A stretch of DNA of 64,000 nt, from positions 26,168 through 90,167 of the forward strand of contig CASFLY010000130.1 of assembly GCA_949295645.1 (NCBI GenBank), given 5' to 3'. The DNA comes from an uncultured Bacteroidales bacterium. Lineage in GTDB: Bacteria > Bacteroidota > Bacteroidia > Bacteroidales > UBA932. The notes beneath the pieces were generated by a model. That model was not told the DNA's origin. It saw only the letters and a list, made by a program, of their open reading frames with translations, and ran no database searches. Of this stretch, positions 3,771 to 45,459 are shown piece after piece. How positions within the stretch are numbered: position 1 is the stretch's first letter; each line of letters begins with the position of its first letter. The translations under genes and the position numbers were made by a program.

Positions 3771-6700
3771 TCAGTCTTTGAAGCGGATGGCGTCAGTGAG
3801 TTCGTCCCACCAGCCGTAATTGACCAGATGTACCATGTCGAAAATCATGAGACCGTCGGATTTCGTAAGGTTCATCCGCACTGCCTTGCGGAACTGTTCG
3901 GGGTTCCCGGCGTAGTCCGGTACGTTGATCCCTCCGAGGAAGGTGTTGTGCCCCATAATCTTCCGGGTGTAGTCGCAGGCCCCTTCGACGCACAGGTATT
4001 CTCCGCTGTGGGCGGTAGAGTCGGTTTCGTTCTGATGAAAGCCGTTGCTTCTGTAGTATTCGTCCAGGGAGACGAGAGGGTAGTAGTTCCCTGTGGTGTA
4101 GATGTCGAGAAGTTCGGCGTACGCATAGTCCCTGTACTCAGGCGTAGCCCAGTCGAATTCTGCAGACGGGTCGTAGTCGCGGCTTGCCCAGTTCACTCCC
4201 ACTTCATAGTATGTCGGATACCATGCTCCGGTGTATGCCCCGAAATCGGCATCCGGATTCGCCGTCTTGACTGCGTCGCGGGCCTCTTCGAAGAAAGAAT
4301 AGATTACGGAAGCCCTCCATTCTATCCATTTGAGGAAATGTTTCCCTCGCCTGATTTCGTATTTTCCGGTTTCGGGATTCGCGACCCATTCGTATATGTC
4401 CTCGGGGAATCTCTCTACCTTTTCTCCGATGTATTCTTCAAACTGCCGCCTGGAGAAATCGGAGAAATCCGACTGGATATTGTCGTATCTGCCCCTGTCG
4501 AGGATGACGCCGTCTATGTCGAACTCGGTCACGAGCTCTGCAAGGAGATTGCAGACGTTTTTGCGCACCTCAGGCAGGGCCGGATTCGAAAACAGCACGA
4601 GCTTGTTTTCGATGTCGGTCTGTTTTACCATGCCTTTCCCGGGAACGTAGTTTACTGCCTGCCATTCAGGATGTTCCTTATAGAGAGGACCGCGCTTTAG
4701 CAGACCGTTCCCCTCTGCAAAGGTGTTGATGGCGCAGTAGATTTTCAGGCCGTTCGCCTTAGCGGCGTCAGTGAATGCCCGGATATAGTCGAATTCCGGA
4801 GCCGGGATGCCTTTCCACTCTTTGATTTCAGGGGCGAAGCCGCTCTTGTACGGGACTTCCCCGCTGGTGCCTTTGACATCGAGGATAATCGTAGTCATCC
4901 CTGTCCGGGCTATTTTCTCGCAATAGAATCTTACGGAATCCAAAGTCTGGAATCTTGCCCAGTTGGCAGACAGATCCACCCACATGAACTTTACGGGAGT
5001 GTCTTTCAGGTTCCCGTAGATGTCGACATCGTATTTGCCGAACGGATCCAGCAGGGAATCTATGGCTATGGCGCATTCGAGGCGGGTCAGGATGTCGGAT
5101 GTCCCGTACGCCTTTCCGCAAGCCATCCCGAGGCAGGTTTTCACTGCGGCGATGCTTGTGCTCAGACTGTCTCCGGTAATTGCGGATATGCAGGAGGCAA
5201 GGGTGCGGATGTCCGCATATTCTGTCTCCGGCTCTGAAAATGTGATGACAGTGCTGTCTGCCCGTTTGAGCCCGGTGTAGAAACTGTCCATCCCGGACAC
5301 GAGGTCGGAAGCGAGCATCTTTTTATCGGGATATATCCACGACTGGTTTTCCCACTCGAAGTTCTTGCCCTCGTACCTGATGATTCCCGTCAGGGCGATG
5401 CGCTGCAGGGTCTTGAACCAGGGGCTGCTTGACGGAAGGTCGAGCAGGGGAACCAGCCAGGCCCCTGCGTCGAGAAGGGTCTTCTGGATTTCGCGCACGG
5501 ACACTTCCGACACTCCGCAGTCATGCTTTACGGCGTATGCTGCGACCGCTCCTGCCGCCTGTCCGAGCTGGAGGACTACCGGCTGGAGCCGGGTGGTGCC
5601 GTTTACGATATTTGTCACGGATATGGATTTTTCTATGACAAGTACGTCATCGTATTCCTTCGGCATCATCACTCCTATAGGGAGGCTGTACGACGGGATC
5701 TGGTGATAATAAAGGTTCGGAAGGTCTTCCCAGCCGTGGTACTGGGTGTGATGCTGGTCCACGGGATAGTCTCCCACACCGATGCCTGTCCTGTACAGTT
5801 TCTTGGTCTGGCCGTAAGGCGACACGATGTCGTTCAGGTTGAACCTTATCCGGCCGTCGATCCTGCGGGACTCCCTGTGATACGGTATGAGCGGGAAGCC
5901 GTCTGCGGTAGGGTATTCCTCGGCGAGCCCGAGATTGGTGAATCCGAGTTCGTTCTGCAGGAAATACAGGAATCGCAGCGACTTCTGTTTTGCAAGTTCT
6001 AAATAGGCTGCGCGTTCCTCCGGCGTGGCATCGATGATATTGCAGTAATAATCATTGCCTTCAAGAGGCCAGTTGATCATATATTTCCCGTTCTGGAGTT
6101 TTCCGTAGGTGATCATTTCGTCTTTCGACCACATGCGGGAGGCTTCCTTCGGGTGTTTGCACAGCACGTTCGTACAGCAGCAGGCAAATTCGGACGGGCT
6201 GTAGTCGTCGGGTTCCGGGACAGGAACCGGATGTCCGTAATCCTGCAGTATCATCACGTATGTAAGATCCTGTACGATGTCGTTCTCTTTTTCAGGGGCT
6301 ATGTCTTCCTTGGTGTCGGCGGCGGAATCCATCCCGATTTCATACGGGATGCCTATGACTTTGGCCACGTCTCCGAGTTCCGTGCCGTCCACGAGGATTT
6401 TCGCGGATACACTCCTGCTCCCGTCCGGCCCGGCAATATCGGCTTTCCAGCCGTCCGGGGTCTTTTCGAAGCCCGAAGCGGAGGTCTTGAACTCTACTGT
6501 GAGGTTCTTTTCGCGGGCGGAGATGTTCCTGAATATCCGTGCTCCGACGGAAGGTTCGAACATCACGTCGCTTACCCAGCCTGTGATAAGGGAGTCTGTG
6601 CCGCCGTACCAGGTTTCGAGACTGTCCCGGAATTCGTCCCAGATGCCGCCTCGGAGGGCATAGCAGCCGTCCGTGGCGCTGACCCCGGCAGAGGTGAGCA

Positions 6701-42454: not shown

Positions 42455-43450
42455 TCAGACTTCTACCCAGTGGATTTTCACGCCGCGGCGTTCCATGCCG
42501 CGGAACCAGGTCATCTGCCGTTTGGCGAACTGATGGATGGCGGTGGCGAGCAGTTTGCGCATATCTTCGTATCCGAGTACGCCTGTGAGGTACAGCGTGA
42601 CGAATTTGTATTCGAGACCGTAATATATAAGGTCTTCCGCCGGGATTCCGCTGTCTATGAGCCTGCGGACCTCCTCCACCATCCCTTCTTCAAGCCTTGC
42701 GTCCAGCCGTCTGTCTATTCTGGCATTGCGTTCCTCCCTGCTGACAAGCGTCCCGATGAAGTACGTGTTCTTGGGCAGGCTGACAGTCCTGTTTACGGGA
42801 TGCTCCTTTTCATATATGGCGATTTCAAGGGCCCTTATCAGCCTTTTCCTCGTGTCATAGTCCGTAGAATTGTGCAGCGGTTTCAGCGATGCAAGCATTT
42901 CTATCAGGGCAGGCGTGTCGATTTGCTCCAGCTCCTCCCTCAACCGCGGATTCGCCGGCACGTCCGGAAGCGAATACCCCATAGTCGCCGCTTCGATGTA
43001 GAGTCCCGACCCTCCGCAGAGCACGGGAATGTTCCCCCGCTCCCTTATCTCCGTCCAGACCTTCTCGAAATCCCGCTGGTATTCGTAAATATTGTATTTG
43101 CTCCCTGCATCGGCGATGTCTATCAGGTGACAGGGCACCTCTTCGTATTCGCACAGGTCTTTCCCCGTCCCGATGTCCATCCCCCTGTACACCTGCCTCG
43201 AATCCCCCGAGATGATTTCCGCCCGCATCCCCGCCGGTATCGCCCCCGCTTCCGCCATTTCCCGTATCTCCCCGGCAATCCTTACCGCATACGCCGTTTT
43301 CCCCGAAGCCGTCGGCCCGAGTACGCATACAAGGTCATACTGCCCGCCAATATACCGACGGACCACCTCTCCGATGTCTATCGTCTCTCCTTCCGGCAGC
43401 TCCGCCGGCGGCGGCACTCCTTTTTTTTCAACGGATCTATCCTTTGCCAT
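42455..43450 (-). CDS. miaA: tRNA dimethylallyltransferase MiaA
   Basis: This 331-residue enzyme transfers a dimethylallyl group to A37 of tRNA. The P-loop G-P-T-A-S-G-K-T is at 45-52, followed by I-S-G-D-S-R-Q-V-Y-R-G-M-D-I-G-T-G-K, the substrate-binding motif, and later R-L-I-R-A-L-E-I and Q-M-T-W-F-R. The N-terminal extension of nearly 40 residues before the P-loop is long for the family and contains an A8 run in the coding strand (E-K-K-G). The frame is open to an ATG at 43489, but 43450 is a simpler start. It is convergent with the cls-like gene. Confidence 0.93.
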   Translation of the reverse strand: MAKDRSVEKKGVPPPAELPEGETIDIGEVVRRYIGGQYDLVCVLGPTASGKTAYAVRIAGEIREMAEAGAIPAGMRAEIISGDSRQVYRGMDIGTGKDLCEYEEVPCHLIDIADAGSKYNIYEYQRDFEKVWTEIRERGNIPVLCGGSGLYIEAATMGYSLPDVPANPRLREELEQIDTPALIEMLASLKPLHNSTDYDTRKRLIRALEIAIYEKEHPVNRTVSLPKNTYFIGTLVSREERNARIDRRLDARLEEGMVEEVRRLIDSGIPAEDLIYYGLEYKFVTLYLTGVLGYEDMRKLLATAIHQFAKRQMTWFRGMERRGVKIHWVEV

Positions 43451-43464
43451 CTCTATATAATGTC

Positions 43465-44670
43465 TTAGTATAAGAAACCGAAAGCCCAAAGCGGGATTTT
43501 GCGGAAAACTGCGGAATCTATGCCGTCTGCGGCGACATAGCCGTGAGGGTCATTCCCTATTTGGCTGAAATCCTTGTCCGGGCCCCCGACTTCGATGATG
43601 TATTTTCCGTCGATACGGAAATCTCCCGATTTCATCCCTCCGTATTCGATGGTGTGGCCGCTGCCTGCTGCCTGATTGCAGAAAAAGGTTTCTCTTAGTG
43701 TGCCTGTTTCCGGTGTCGCCGGAGAAAGCGCACACAGAAGATTCGGGTTGTCCAGCAGAATCTTGTCCGGCTTCTGCAGGCTGCTTGTCGAATGGAGATC
43801 GGCGAACAGTCTCCGGATAATATCCGCCTCTTCGAGATATTTCAGATACTTGAGTGTGGTGAGACGCTGGATGCCTGTATTCCTTGATATTTTGGCTATG
43901 TCCACTTCAAACGGCACAGAGCCGGCGATAATCTGGAGCAGGGCCTTTATCTTTCTGACATTTCCCGGTTCAACGCCTCTTAAAATAGTCAGTTCCGAAT
44001 CGATCGTATAGTTTATGACGCTTTCGAGCCGGGATTCGTATGTCGCCTTGTCTTCAAAATAAAAAGGATAGCAGCCGGTCCGGAGGTATTGTCCGAAATA
44101 CTCCAGAGGGCGGCATTTTTCCCTGATTCCGGCACATATCCCGGATGCGTCGGACAGCAGATCTTCGAGAGTAACGGCATCGAACCTGAGCCCTGTCTCG
44201 AAGCAGAGATATTCTCTGAACGACATTCCGGGCATTTCGTACTCTATCATCCTCCTCGACAGATCGGCTTTCCCGTCATTGATTTCCAAAAGCGAACTTC
44301 CGCTGACCACAACGTGCAGATGCCTGTAAAGATCGTAAATCTCTTTCAGTTCACGACTCCAGCCATCGTATTTGTGGATCTCATCGATGAAAAGATGTGT
44401 GCCTCCGATTTTGGAAAAACGCTCTGCTGTTTCCACTAATGTGTGGGTGGAAAAATAACCGGTATCGGCAGAGCAGTAGAGCACATGCCTGTCCCCTTCT
44501 GCAAACCCTGACTTTATTTTCTGCAAAATCAGCGTCGATTTTCCGACGCCTTTCGGCCCTTTGAGGCATATCAGTCTGCTGTCCCAGTTGATTCTGTTTG
44601 TGAAGTTTCTGACAAAATCCGTCGGGACTGTCCTGACGTACTCGTCATGCCGTTCAAAAAGCTTGTCCAT
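43465..44670 (-). CDS. AAA ATPase with DUF4143 domain
   Basis: This 401-residue protein has an AAA_14 ATPase (Walker A G-P-K-G-V-G-K-S-T at 38-46; Walker B H-L-F-I-D-E-I-H-K at 92-100; sensor-like V-V-V-S-G-S-S), a winged-helix-like middle (I-S-R-N-T-G-I-Q-R-L-T-T-L-K-Y-L-K-Y-L) and a DUF4143 C-terminus with D-G-K-Y-I-I-E-V-G, similar to a PD-(D/E)XK core strand. The family is abundant in Bacteroidota, and its function is unsettled: suggestions include nucleic-acid or defence-related ATPases. It is a stand-alone gene between core genes, looks somewhat richer in AT than its neighbours, and has its own promoter overlapped by three 16-bp dyads. The stop is 14 bp from miaA. Confidence 0.85.
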   Translation of the reverse strand: MDKLFERHDEYVRTVPTDFVRNFTNRINWDSRLICLKGPKGVGKSTLILQKIKSGFAEGDRHVLYCSADTGYFSTHTLVETAERFSKIGGTHLFIDEIHKYDGWSRELKEIYDLYRHLHVVVSGSSLLEINDGKADLSRRMIEYEMPGMSFREYLCFETGLRFDAVTLEDLLSDASGICAGIREKCRPLEYFGQYLRTGCYPFYFEDKATYESRLESVINYTIDSELTILRGVEPGNVRKIKALLQIIAGSVPFEVDIAKISRNTGIQRLTTLKYLKYLEEADIIRRLFADLHSTSSLQKPDKILLDNPNLLCALSPATPETGTLRETFFCNQAAGSGHTIEYGGMKSGDFRIDGKYIIEVGGPDKDFSQIGNDPHGYVAADGIDSAVFRKIPLWAFGFLY

Positions 44671-44689
44671 ACCCTTATCTTAACTTATC

Positions 44690-44719
44690 CAAAGGTAAGT
44701 GTTTTTTGCAGAAAACAAA
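44690..44719 (-). promoter_or_regulatory. Promoter of the AAA/DUF4143 gene
   Basis: Minus-strand -33 TTTG (CAAA at 44716-44719) and -7 TACCTTTG (44690-44697) with an 18-bp spacer, a good Bacteroidota consensus. The first 16-bp dyad fills the spacer. Confidence 0.65.
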
Positions 44720-44781
44720 AATATTCGGAAAATGTTTTTTATAAAAAACACTTCGACTCAAAAATGTTCTTTGCAAGAAAC
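44701..44781. promoter_or_regulatory. Three 16-bp dyads, candidate operator array
   Basis: GTTTTTTGCAGAAAAC (44701-44716), GTTTTTTATAAAAAAC (44734-44749, perfect palindrome) and GTTCTTTGCAAGAAAC (44766-44781). Start-to-start distances are 33 and 32 bp, about three helical turns, so all three face the same side. The first overlaps the promoter spacer. The outer two are both followed by AAAAAT. Confidence 0.65.
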
Positions 44782-44907
44782 AAAAATCGGCTGAAATGAC
44801 CTTCCCTGAAAAAGGTTGACACTTTTAGAGCGGTTCAACTAATATACTTTACATATTCACTGACTGGGTTTACAGCCGAAGAGTGCTGTTTTATTGCAAA
44901 AAGTTTC

Positions 44908-44915
44908 TAAATTTG
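44908..44915 (+). promoter_or_regulatory. -7 box for smpB
   Basis: TAAATTTG about 95 bp before the smpB start codon. Confidence 0.5.
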
Positions 44916-45009
44916 CCGGTTCCGCAGGAGTGTGGAGCGGAAATTGCTGTGGGCCTGCGCCTGTGCCGGAAGCGGGCGGCAGGAGGCGGCTTTGACAAAG
45001 GGAAAGATT

Positions 45010-45459
45010 ATGCCGAAAGCAAAAAGCAAAGTGGAGATAAAGAACAGGAGGGCGTCGTTCGACTATGAATTCATAGAGACTTACGTCGCCGGGATAGTGC
45101 TGACCGGTACCGAAATAAAATCCATAAGGGCCGGGAAGGCTTCGCTTGTGGATGCTTTCTGCTATTTCAACGGAGGGGAGCTCTATGTGAAGAACATGAA
45201 TGTCGCCGAATACCACTGGGGCAGCTGGGGAAAGCACGACCCGCGGCGGGACAGGAAGCTGCTGCTGAAGAAAAAGGAGCTGGACAAGCTGCAGCGGGCG
45301 GTGAAGGAAAAAGGGCTGACGATAGTGGCGGTGAGGCTTTTTGTGGCGGACAACGGCTATGCCAAACTGGCTATATCATTGGCCCGGGGTAAAAAGGAAT
45401 ACGACAAGCGCCAGACCATCAGGGAGAAGGACCTCCGGCGCGAGATGGAGCGGATGTAG
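45010..45459 (+). CDS. smpB: SsrA-binding protein SmpB
   Basis: This 149-residue protein, normal length for SmpB, binds tmRNA and brings it to stalled ribosomes. Hallmarks are [27 protein letters not shown], the central beta barrel, [11 protein letters not shown], and a basic C-terminal tail (K-K-E-Y-D-K-R). The frame is open to 44932, but the ATG at 45010 gives the conserved start (M-P-K-A-K-S-K) and has GGGAAAG upstream. No ssrA gene was seen in the window. Confidence 0.95.

Follow-up and report, generated by a model that had tools for sequence, protein, structure and literature searches.

Three 16-bp dyads lie at regular intervals over the promoter of a gene for an AAA/DUF4143 ATPase, a member of a common and as yet unstudied family, in the genome of an uncultured Bacteroidales bacterium. 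The question that they raise is which protein reads them, and to what effect on the gene. The dyads are probably operators of the DUF4143 ATPase itself and serve its cooperative autorepression; there are no binding or expression data. The window, as the term is used here, is the whole stretch of DNA that was analysed, 64,000 nucleotides in length.

The dyad array and its gene

The array and the promoter boxes span positions 44690–44781 of the window and comprise the following features:

44690–44697, minus strand: -7 box, TACCTTTG, at a similar position in relatives
44701–44716, no strand: dyad 1, GTTTTTTGCAGAAAAC, putative operator site 1, filling the -33/-7 spacer of the DUF4143 promoter
44716–44719, minus strand: -33 box, TTTG
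44734–44749, no strand: dyad 2, GTTTTTTATAAAAAAC, putative operator site 2, 33 bp upstream of dyad 1
44766–44781, no strand: dyad 3, GTTCTTTGCAAGAAAC, putative operator site 3, a variant, 32 bp upstream of dyad 2

The original prediction had described three 16-bp dyads in this region, the first of them occupying the interval between a -33 and a -7 box. All three are present, with start-to-start distances of 33 and 32 bp, and dyad 1 does lie between TTTG and TACCTTTG, which flank it on the minus strand with a gap of 18 bp. The two flanking sequences correspond to the -33 and -7 boxes of the Bacteroidota promoter consensus.

With up to one mismatch allowed, the dyad pattern has five matches on both strands of the 64-kb window, all at the three dyad positions; shuffles of the window average 0.25 matches, and none of 100 reaches five. 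A motif that was equally frequent elsewhere in the genome would have spoken against an operator. The exact pattern has no occurrence in the whole 2.31-Mb genome (84% complete) besides the array locus, and the paired dyad form occurs once, at that locus. Loose matches to single dyads do exist: a degenerate 18-bp form, at up to three mismatches, has 31 matches per strand of the genome versus 13 for a reversed control. The three dyads carry 0, 1 and 2 mismatches to this form. Three further places in the genome also stand at two mismatches, but they do not combine the TGTT end with the AACA end.

Other readings of the dyads were considered and rejected. They lie upstream of the -7 box and are GC-poor, which argues against an RNA hairpin or terminator, and neither of the two terminator-like sites predicted in 43400–45100 falls on them. 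Chance AT-rich palindromes are ruled out by the shuffles and by the control upstream regions described below. A regulon elsewhere in the genome was likewise discarded, there being no second paired site and no second exact dyad, with loose single matches present.

The gene behind this promoter, the parts of its product and its two neighbours are arranged as follows:

42455–43450, minus strand: miaA, one flank of the insertion site
43465–44670, minus strand: AAA_14/DUF4143 ATPase gene, 401 aa, matching the PADLOC candidate PDC-S01
43468–43707, minus strand: C-terminal part, residues 322–401, PD-(D/E)XK-like by motif only
43753–43968, minus strand: winged helix, residues 235–306, from the AlphaFold2 model and co-variation
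43828–43869, minus strand: recognition helix 269–281 with residue 268, a candidate specificity position
44206–44580, minus strand: AAA_14 ATPase domain, residues 31–155, from a Pfam scan
45010–45459, plus strand: smpB, the other flank of the insertion site

The protein exceeds the Pfam gathering scores for both AAA_14 (91.8 bits, cut-off 27) and DUF4143 (29 bits, cut-off 28.1). It also matches the PADLOC profile for PDC-S01 with an E-value of 1.9e-23 (the E-value, not the PADLOC score cut-offs, was used). It is a candidate single-gene phage defence on the strength of this profile match only, and any anti-phage activity is inferred.

The AlphaFold2 model of the protein (mean pLDDT 91.7, pTM 0.90) contains a winged helix composed of helices 235–250, 258–265 and 269–281 and strands 285–288 and 303–306, with residue 268 directly preceding helix 269–281. 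A winged-helix-like middle segment, first proposed from the translation, is therefore confidently predicted, and it co-varies with the operator. In the C-terminal part, D350, E360, K366 and Q370 are shared by all 45 aligned members. They resemble a PD-(D/E)XK motif with a displaced lysine, six residues after the glutamate, and no nuclease fold is among the 50 fold matches listed for residues 206–401. The resemblance is one of motif only, and nuclease activity is not shown.

Paired dyads across the family

Relatives of the gene with more than 340 residues, an identity of 35% or more and an upstream sequence of 120 bp or longer were collected, giving 123 distinct relatives from 162 loci. Each upstream region was scored for two dyads with a common half-site, with the spacing left free between 18 and 60 bp and dinucleotide shuffles as the reference. 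The pair score exceeds the 95th percentile of the shuffles in 111 of the 123 relatives (the other 12 fall under it) and the 99th percentile in 97. The chosen spacing is 32 bp in 27 members, 33 bp in 80 and 34 bp in one, which amounts to 108 of the 111. Control upstream regions from the same loci pass the threshold in 12 of 88 cases, with a flat distribution of spacings. Palindromic sites over the gene's own promoter at a fixed helical spacing are what is observed. Single dyads are weaker: the 95th percentile is exceeded by 57 of 123 relatives with shuffles as the reference and by 41 of 123 with the controls; the distribution of the best single dyads is nevertheless shifted towards stronger scores relative to the 88 control upstreams (Mann–Whitney p 2e-15).

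These counts bear out the expected enrichment upstream of homologues, the absence of which would have refuted the original prediction. Two of its details need amending. Paired dyads are enriched as proposed, but a search for GTTYTTT alone would understate them, the exact motif being one clade's version. Similarly, the dyads do stand at a fixed pitch, but two of them are usual and three are a variant.

The pairs are also placed regularly with respect to the promoter. No more than 25 bp from the centre of dyad 2, 83 of the 108 members have a TAnnTTTG box, which in 76 of these is 11–16.5 bp downstream (where several boxes lay near dyad 2, the one closest to +12 was used); a strict -7 box near dyad 2 is missing in 25 of 108. 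In 13 members, the sole TAnnTTTG box coincides in part with dyad 1, the second dyad being downstream of it at an unchanged spacing of 33 or 34 bp.

Mobile elements carry the same arrangement. A plasmid and phage search returned 34 plasmid records and one phage-labelled record (label unverified), and 11 of the 16 matches listed were analysed, none of them having been used in setting the test. For seven of these 11 plasmid- or phage-labelled copies, at most one of 200 shuffles reaches the score, and all seven have a spacing of 32–33 bp, although two of them (L285 and L288) are near-identical. Three copies are weaker, the score being reached by 11 (L280), 9 (L284) and 5 (L289) of 200 shuffles at spacings of 33, 34 and 33 bp, respectively. 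One copy, L287, has no significant pair (51 of 200). The copy on a Segatella copri plasmid, in which the helix starts VSKNN, has TCCCTCATTGAGGGA twice, similar to the operators of chromosomal relatives with the same helix.

Beyond the subfamily, a wider set of 71 P-loop ORFs was taken from DUF4143 loci, most of them belonging to other subfamilies. They were chosen by motif rather than by profile and, in contrast to 103 control genes, irrespective of any overlap with neighbouring genes. A repeat at p ≤ 0.0167 is found for 37 of the 71 versus 16 of the 103 controls. One of the 71 (L191) is itself a subfamily member, and the result holds without it (36/70). By the same measure, about half of the other DUF4143 genes have no repeat. 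Significant dyad pairs occur in 31 of the 71 versus 14 of the 103, pairs at 32–34 bp in 17 versus 4 (Fisher p 8e-5) and pairs at 21–23 bp in 7 versus 2 (p 0.02). Among the 31 archaeal ORFs there are 18 significant pairs, 13 of which are 32–34 bp apart; the 40 non-archaeal ORFs have 13, of which four are at that spacing. Because the 13 shifted arrays keep 33 or 34 bp and most significant archaeal pairs stand at 32–34 bp, it seems to be the protein, and not the promoter, that sets the spacing. A pitch of 32–34 bp in both bacteria and archaea points to the geometry of a protein assembly.

Individual DUF4143 loci gave some separate observations. In three archaeal loci (L177, L242 and L249), dyad pairs 33–34 bp apart appear by eye to bracket a TATA-like box. 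In the window's own genome, a gene of another DUF4143 subfamily (L005, contig C104) has about five direct repeats of TTTGAGAATTYYG in 22-bp steps over its promoter, located 120 bp before the gene, and another DUF4143 gene (L007, contig C91) has upstream of it the palindrome TATTTTATTGGAGAAAAATGG, each arm of which is about 20 bp long.

Co-variation with the winged helix and transfer as a cassette

The half-sites vary among relatives, with examples including TGTTTTTT, TGTTTATT, GGTTATT, TGTTGC, TGCAC, TGCGG, TCCCT, CAATCTT and CACTTTT, and the palindrome sequence differs between protein clades. When operator similarity is set against the identity of protein segments, the winged helix has a standardised coefficient of 0.111, compared with 0.009, 0.022 and 0.048 for other parts. 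A scan of 75 windows of 30 residues, controlled for the rest of the protein, gives residues 246–275 as the best window across all 108 members (5778 pairs), with 341–370 in third place. Among 29 representatives of less than 60% identity, the best window is 241–270 (r 0.271), and none of 2000 permutations reaches this r, the test having been made for the chosen window only.

Among single columns, C66 in the AAA domain ranks first (0.359), perhaps as a clade marker, and Q268 ranks second (0.334). Residue 268 agrees with the half-site in 50 of the 50 members with a GC-type half-site: it is S (32), G (2) or N (1) in the 35 members with GCAC/GCAT half-sites and D in the 15 with GCGG/GCCG half-sites. 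The GCGG clades, of 12 and 5 members, are not sisters, and column 268 is the only one of 401 that is fully common to both and absent from the 35 GCAC-like members. On a tree built without residues 245–290, the switch represents two independent changes, which are too few for a significant sign test. A simple one-residue code for all members is ruled out by L281 and L286, which lie outside the GC clade and have S/G-R-N at 268–270 together with TGTTTT-type dyads. Since two D268 members also have half-site consensuses of TGCAG and TGGGG, there is no simple universal code. A palindrome that changes in step with the DNA-reading helix suggests, from sequence comparison alone, that each protein may switch itself off.

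Array and gene form a cassette, which in the window lies between smpB and miaA. In orthologues from different contexts, the common DNA starts 72–115 bp before the ATG (1 bp in one pair) and ends within 7 bp of the last codon, except in L046 versus L047 and L051, where it ends 41 bp past it. L046 and L051 are 92–93% identical from -81 and differ in both flanks, while L046 and L047 have a left neighbour in common. On these sequence comparisons, array and gene are shown to travel together. A miaA-protein search of 61 genomes yielded 29 loci for analysis besides the window's own; smpB is in the miaA flank of 25 of these 29, and none of the 29 has a DUF4143 relative at the miaA flank. In two of these 25 loci, L252 (2486–3745) and L254 (2492–3751), an ahcY-like gene lies between smpB and miaA, at the site of the window's cassette.

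DUF4143 paralogues within one genome mostly differ in their operators, with a mean similarity of 0.247 over 27 pairs and a highest value of 0.87 for a pair that is 86% identical. Extra insulation between such paralogues was rejected: the mean of 0.247 compares with 0.241 predicted from divergence, and similarity is lower than predicted in 11 of the 27 pairs.

Some further sequences deserve mention. TTCGTCGAACTGACGTTAA occurs in the window at 303–321, 2740–2758 and 2783–2801, as three copies, one inverted and with 2 mismatches, and may be one end of a short repeat element; a similar sequence is found close to the arrays of L328 and L330. L328 (368–418) and L329 (1501–1550) each have an array with no DUF4143 gene beside it, and in both the neighbour is the same radical-SAM gene.

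Proposed autorepression, its rivals and known systems

Under autorepression, a symmetric AAA/winged-helix assembly, probably a dimer, would read each dyad, contact being made by the winged helix in the middle of the protein. Two or three of these assemblies would bind jointly on the same side of the DNA, separated by some three helical turns, and the promoter-proximal one would cover the DNA from -33 to -7 and shut off transcription. The gene would be tightly self-limited as a result, and repression might be lifted by the ATP state or by an infection signal, a step that is itself inferred. The earlier suggestion of a cooperative repressor operator with autoregulation draws support from the observed spacing, promoter position and winged-helix co-variation, to which the dyads themselves, the joint transfer of array and gene and the single occurrence of the paired form in the genome can be added as demonstrated. 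Direct binding, dimer stoichiometry, cooperativity and repression rather than activation are inferred only. With a predicted operator for most subfamily members (111/123) and a helix position that matches the half-site in one clade, the family is directly testable.

A separate host regulator or nucleoid protein that binds the dyads and silences foreign AT-rich genes is hard to reconcile with the data and very unlikely. The sites of the window's clade are AT-rich, and the dyads overlap the promoter, as is typical of many repressors. However, such a regulator would have to accommodate a paired form that occurs once in the genome, DUF4143 genes within one genome that mostly have different operators, and an operator that follows gene and recognition helix across hosts, up to and including the VSKNN helix and TCCCTCATTGAGGGA of the Segatella plasmid. 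The protein could instead bind its own array for autoactivation or as a nucleoprotein hub. The outer dyads do occupy activator-type positions upstream of the promoter, and the layout of AAA+ plus winged helix resembles that of initiator ATPases (ORC, RuvB and RFC in Foldseek), but the proximal dyad fills the -33/-7 spacer, a position typical of repression, and the 13 members with a dyad over the -7 box and its partner downstream also have repression-type positions. Activation is therefore considered improbable.

The remaining alternative, also improbable, is that the array is (or is also) an address for the cassette, at which the gene would be gained or lost in the manner of an att or homing site, either through the DUF4143 protein or through ordinary recombination between arrays. 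Copies in different contexts have common DNA only from near the promoter to about the stop codon, as an address would have it. In 400 genomes of the same genus, the paired form has 15 matches in 12 genomes, compared with none for a reversed control. A relative lies beside the array in 10 of the 12 (in G052, only its residues 233–401), while G113 and G424 have an array without a DUF4143 relative in the adjoining stretch and no close protein anywhere in the genome (best 29% and 42%, respectively). In L044 and L045, the gene lies between two direct arrays, the downstream copies being at about 4215–4300 and 4210–4270. The flanks of G424 are 94% and 92% identical to those of L044, but the gene is absent from between them and the arrays have collapsed; in G113, the array stands beside the same radical-SAM gene as in L044/L045, and on its other side the contig ends after 367 bp. 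Nevertheless, the radical-SAM site can be explained by a cassette that was first duplicated in tandem and then removed by ordinary deletion between the repeats. At smpB/miaA, moreover, the window has no dyad at the 3' end, and none was seen by eye in six empty sites. Downstream dyads were found in only three of 108 members, in one case at a distance of 2.8 kb, so a homing signature at every copy was rejected; the scan, which had at least 128 bp to examine, was insensitive and caught one of the three downstream dyads of L044. The two relatives with an array but no gene leave open a second role in gene gain and loss. In its fullest form, the proposal would make DUF4143 ATPases self-addressed single-gene cassettes, in which the gene's own array, read by a fast-changing recognition helix, is both operator and place of entry and exit. 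The 33-bp pitch would then be dictated by an ATPase assembly that has been conserved between Bacteroidota and Nanoarchaeota-type archaea. This would be a long shot.

Autorepression by the ATPase itself remains the preferred reading, and it can be placed beside several known systems. No AAA autorepressor was found in the open-access literature searched, and the AAA_14 matches listed consisted of unrelated text. In the portions of that literature accessible to the search, DUF4143 appears in one paper, in a table, PDC-S01 is named in three, and no operator is described for PDC-S01 or DUF4143.

Orc1/Cdc6 and RuvB represent AAA+ initiators with a winged helix. The order of AAA+ followed by winged helix is the same in the DUF4143 protein, whose Foldseek matches include ORC, RuvB and RFC chains. 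In contrast to initiators, the DUF4143 protein is encoded by a single mobile gene and has a DUF4143 C-terminus, and TM-scores among the matches listed are low (0.22–0.32 by query length). MarR-type repressors are similar in fold: with the model of residues 206–401, they come top in the PDB and supply most of the best Foldseek matches, some of them DNA-bound. The likeness is limited, however, as these matches have E-values of 8e-3 or worse, none reaching 0.001, and the Pfam scan gave no match of the protein to the MarR profile.

The PADLOC phage defence candidate PDC-S01 is a single gene, and its profiles are matched by the window protein and by all 45 aligned members. PDC-S01 is itself defined by profiles. 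According to the available part of the source, PDC-S01 is the fourth most common defence across prokaryotes, and validation is pending for most such candidates (PMC12988326). Its genes are among the most numerous unvalidated defence candidates.

A parallel in regulation is with CapW and BrxR, the WYL repressors of CBASS and BREX, which likewise combine a winged-helix protein with promoter-overlapping palindromes; those of CapW, in the accessible portion of the source, are 19–24 bp long and overlap the -10 site of the defence promoter (PMC9122588). CapW and BrxR are separate WYL regulators, whereas the ATPase/DUF4143 protein itself contains the winged helix and has no WYL match in a Pfam scan up to E 1. 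Its array also differs from theirs in consisting of two or three dyads at a pitch of 32–34 bp.
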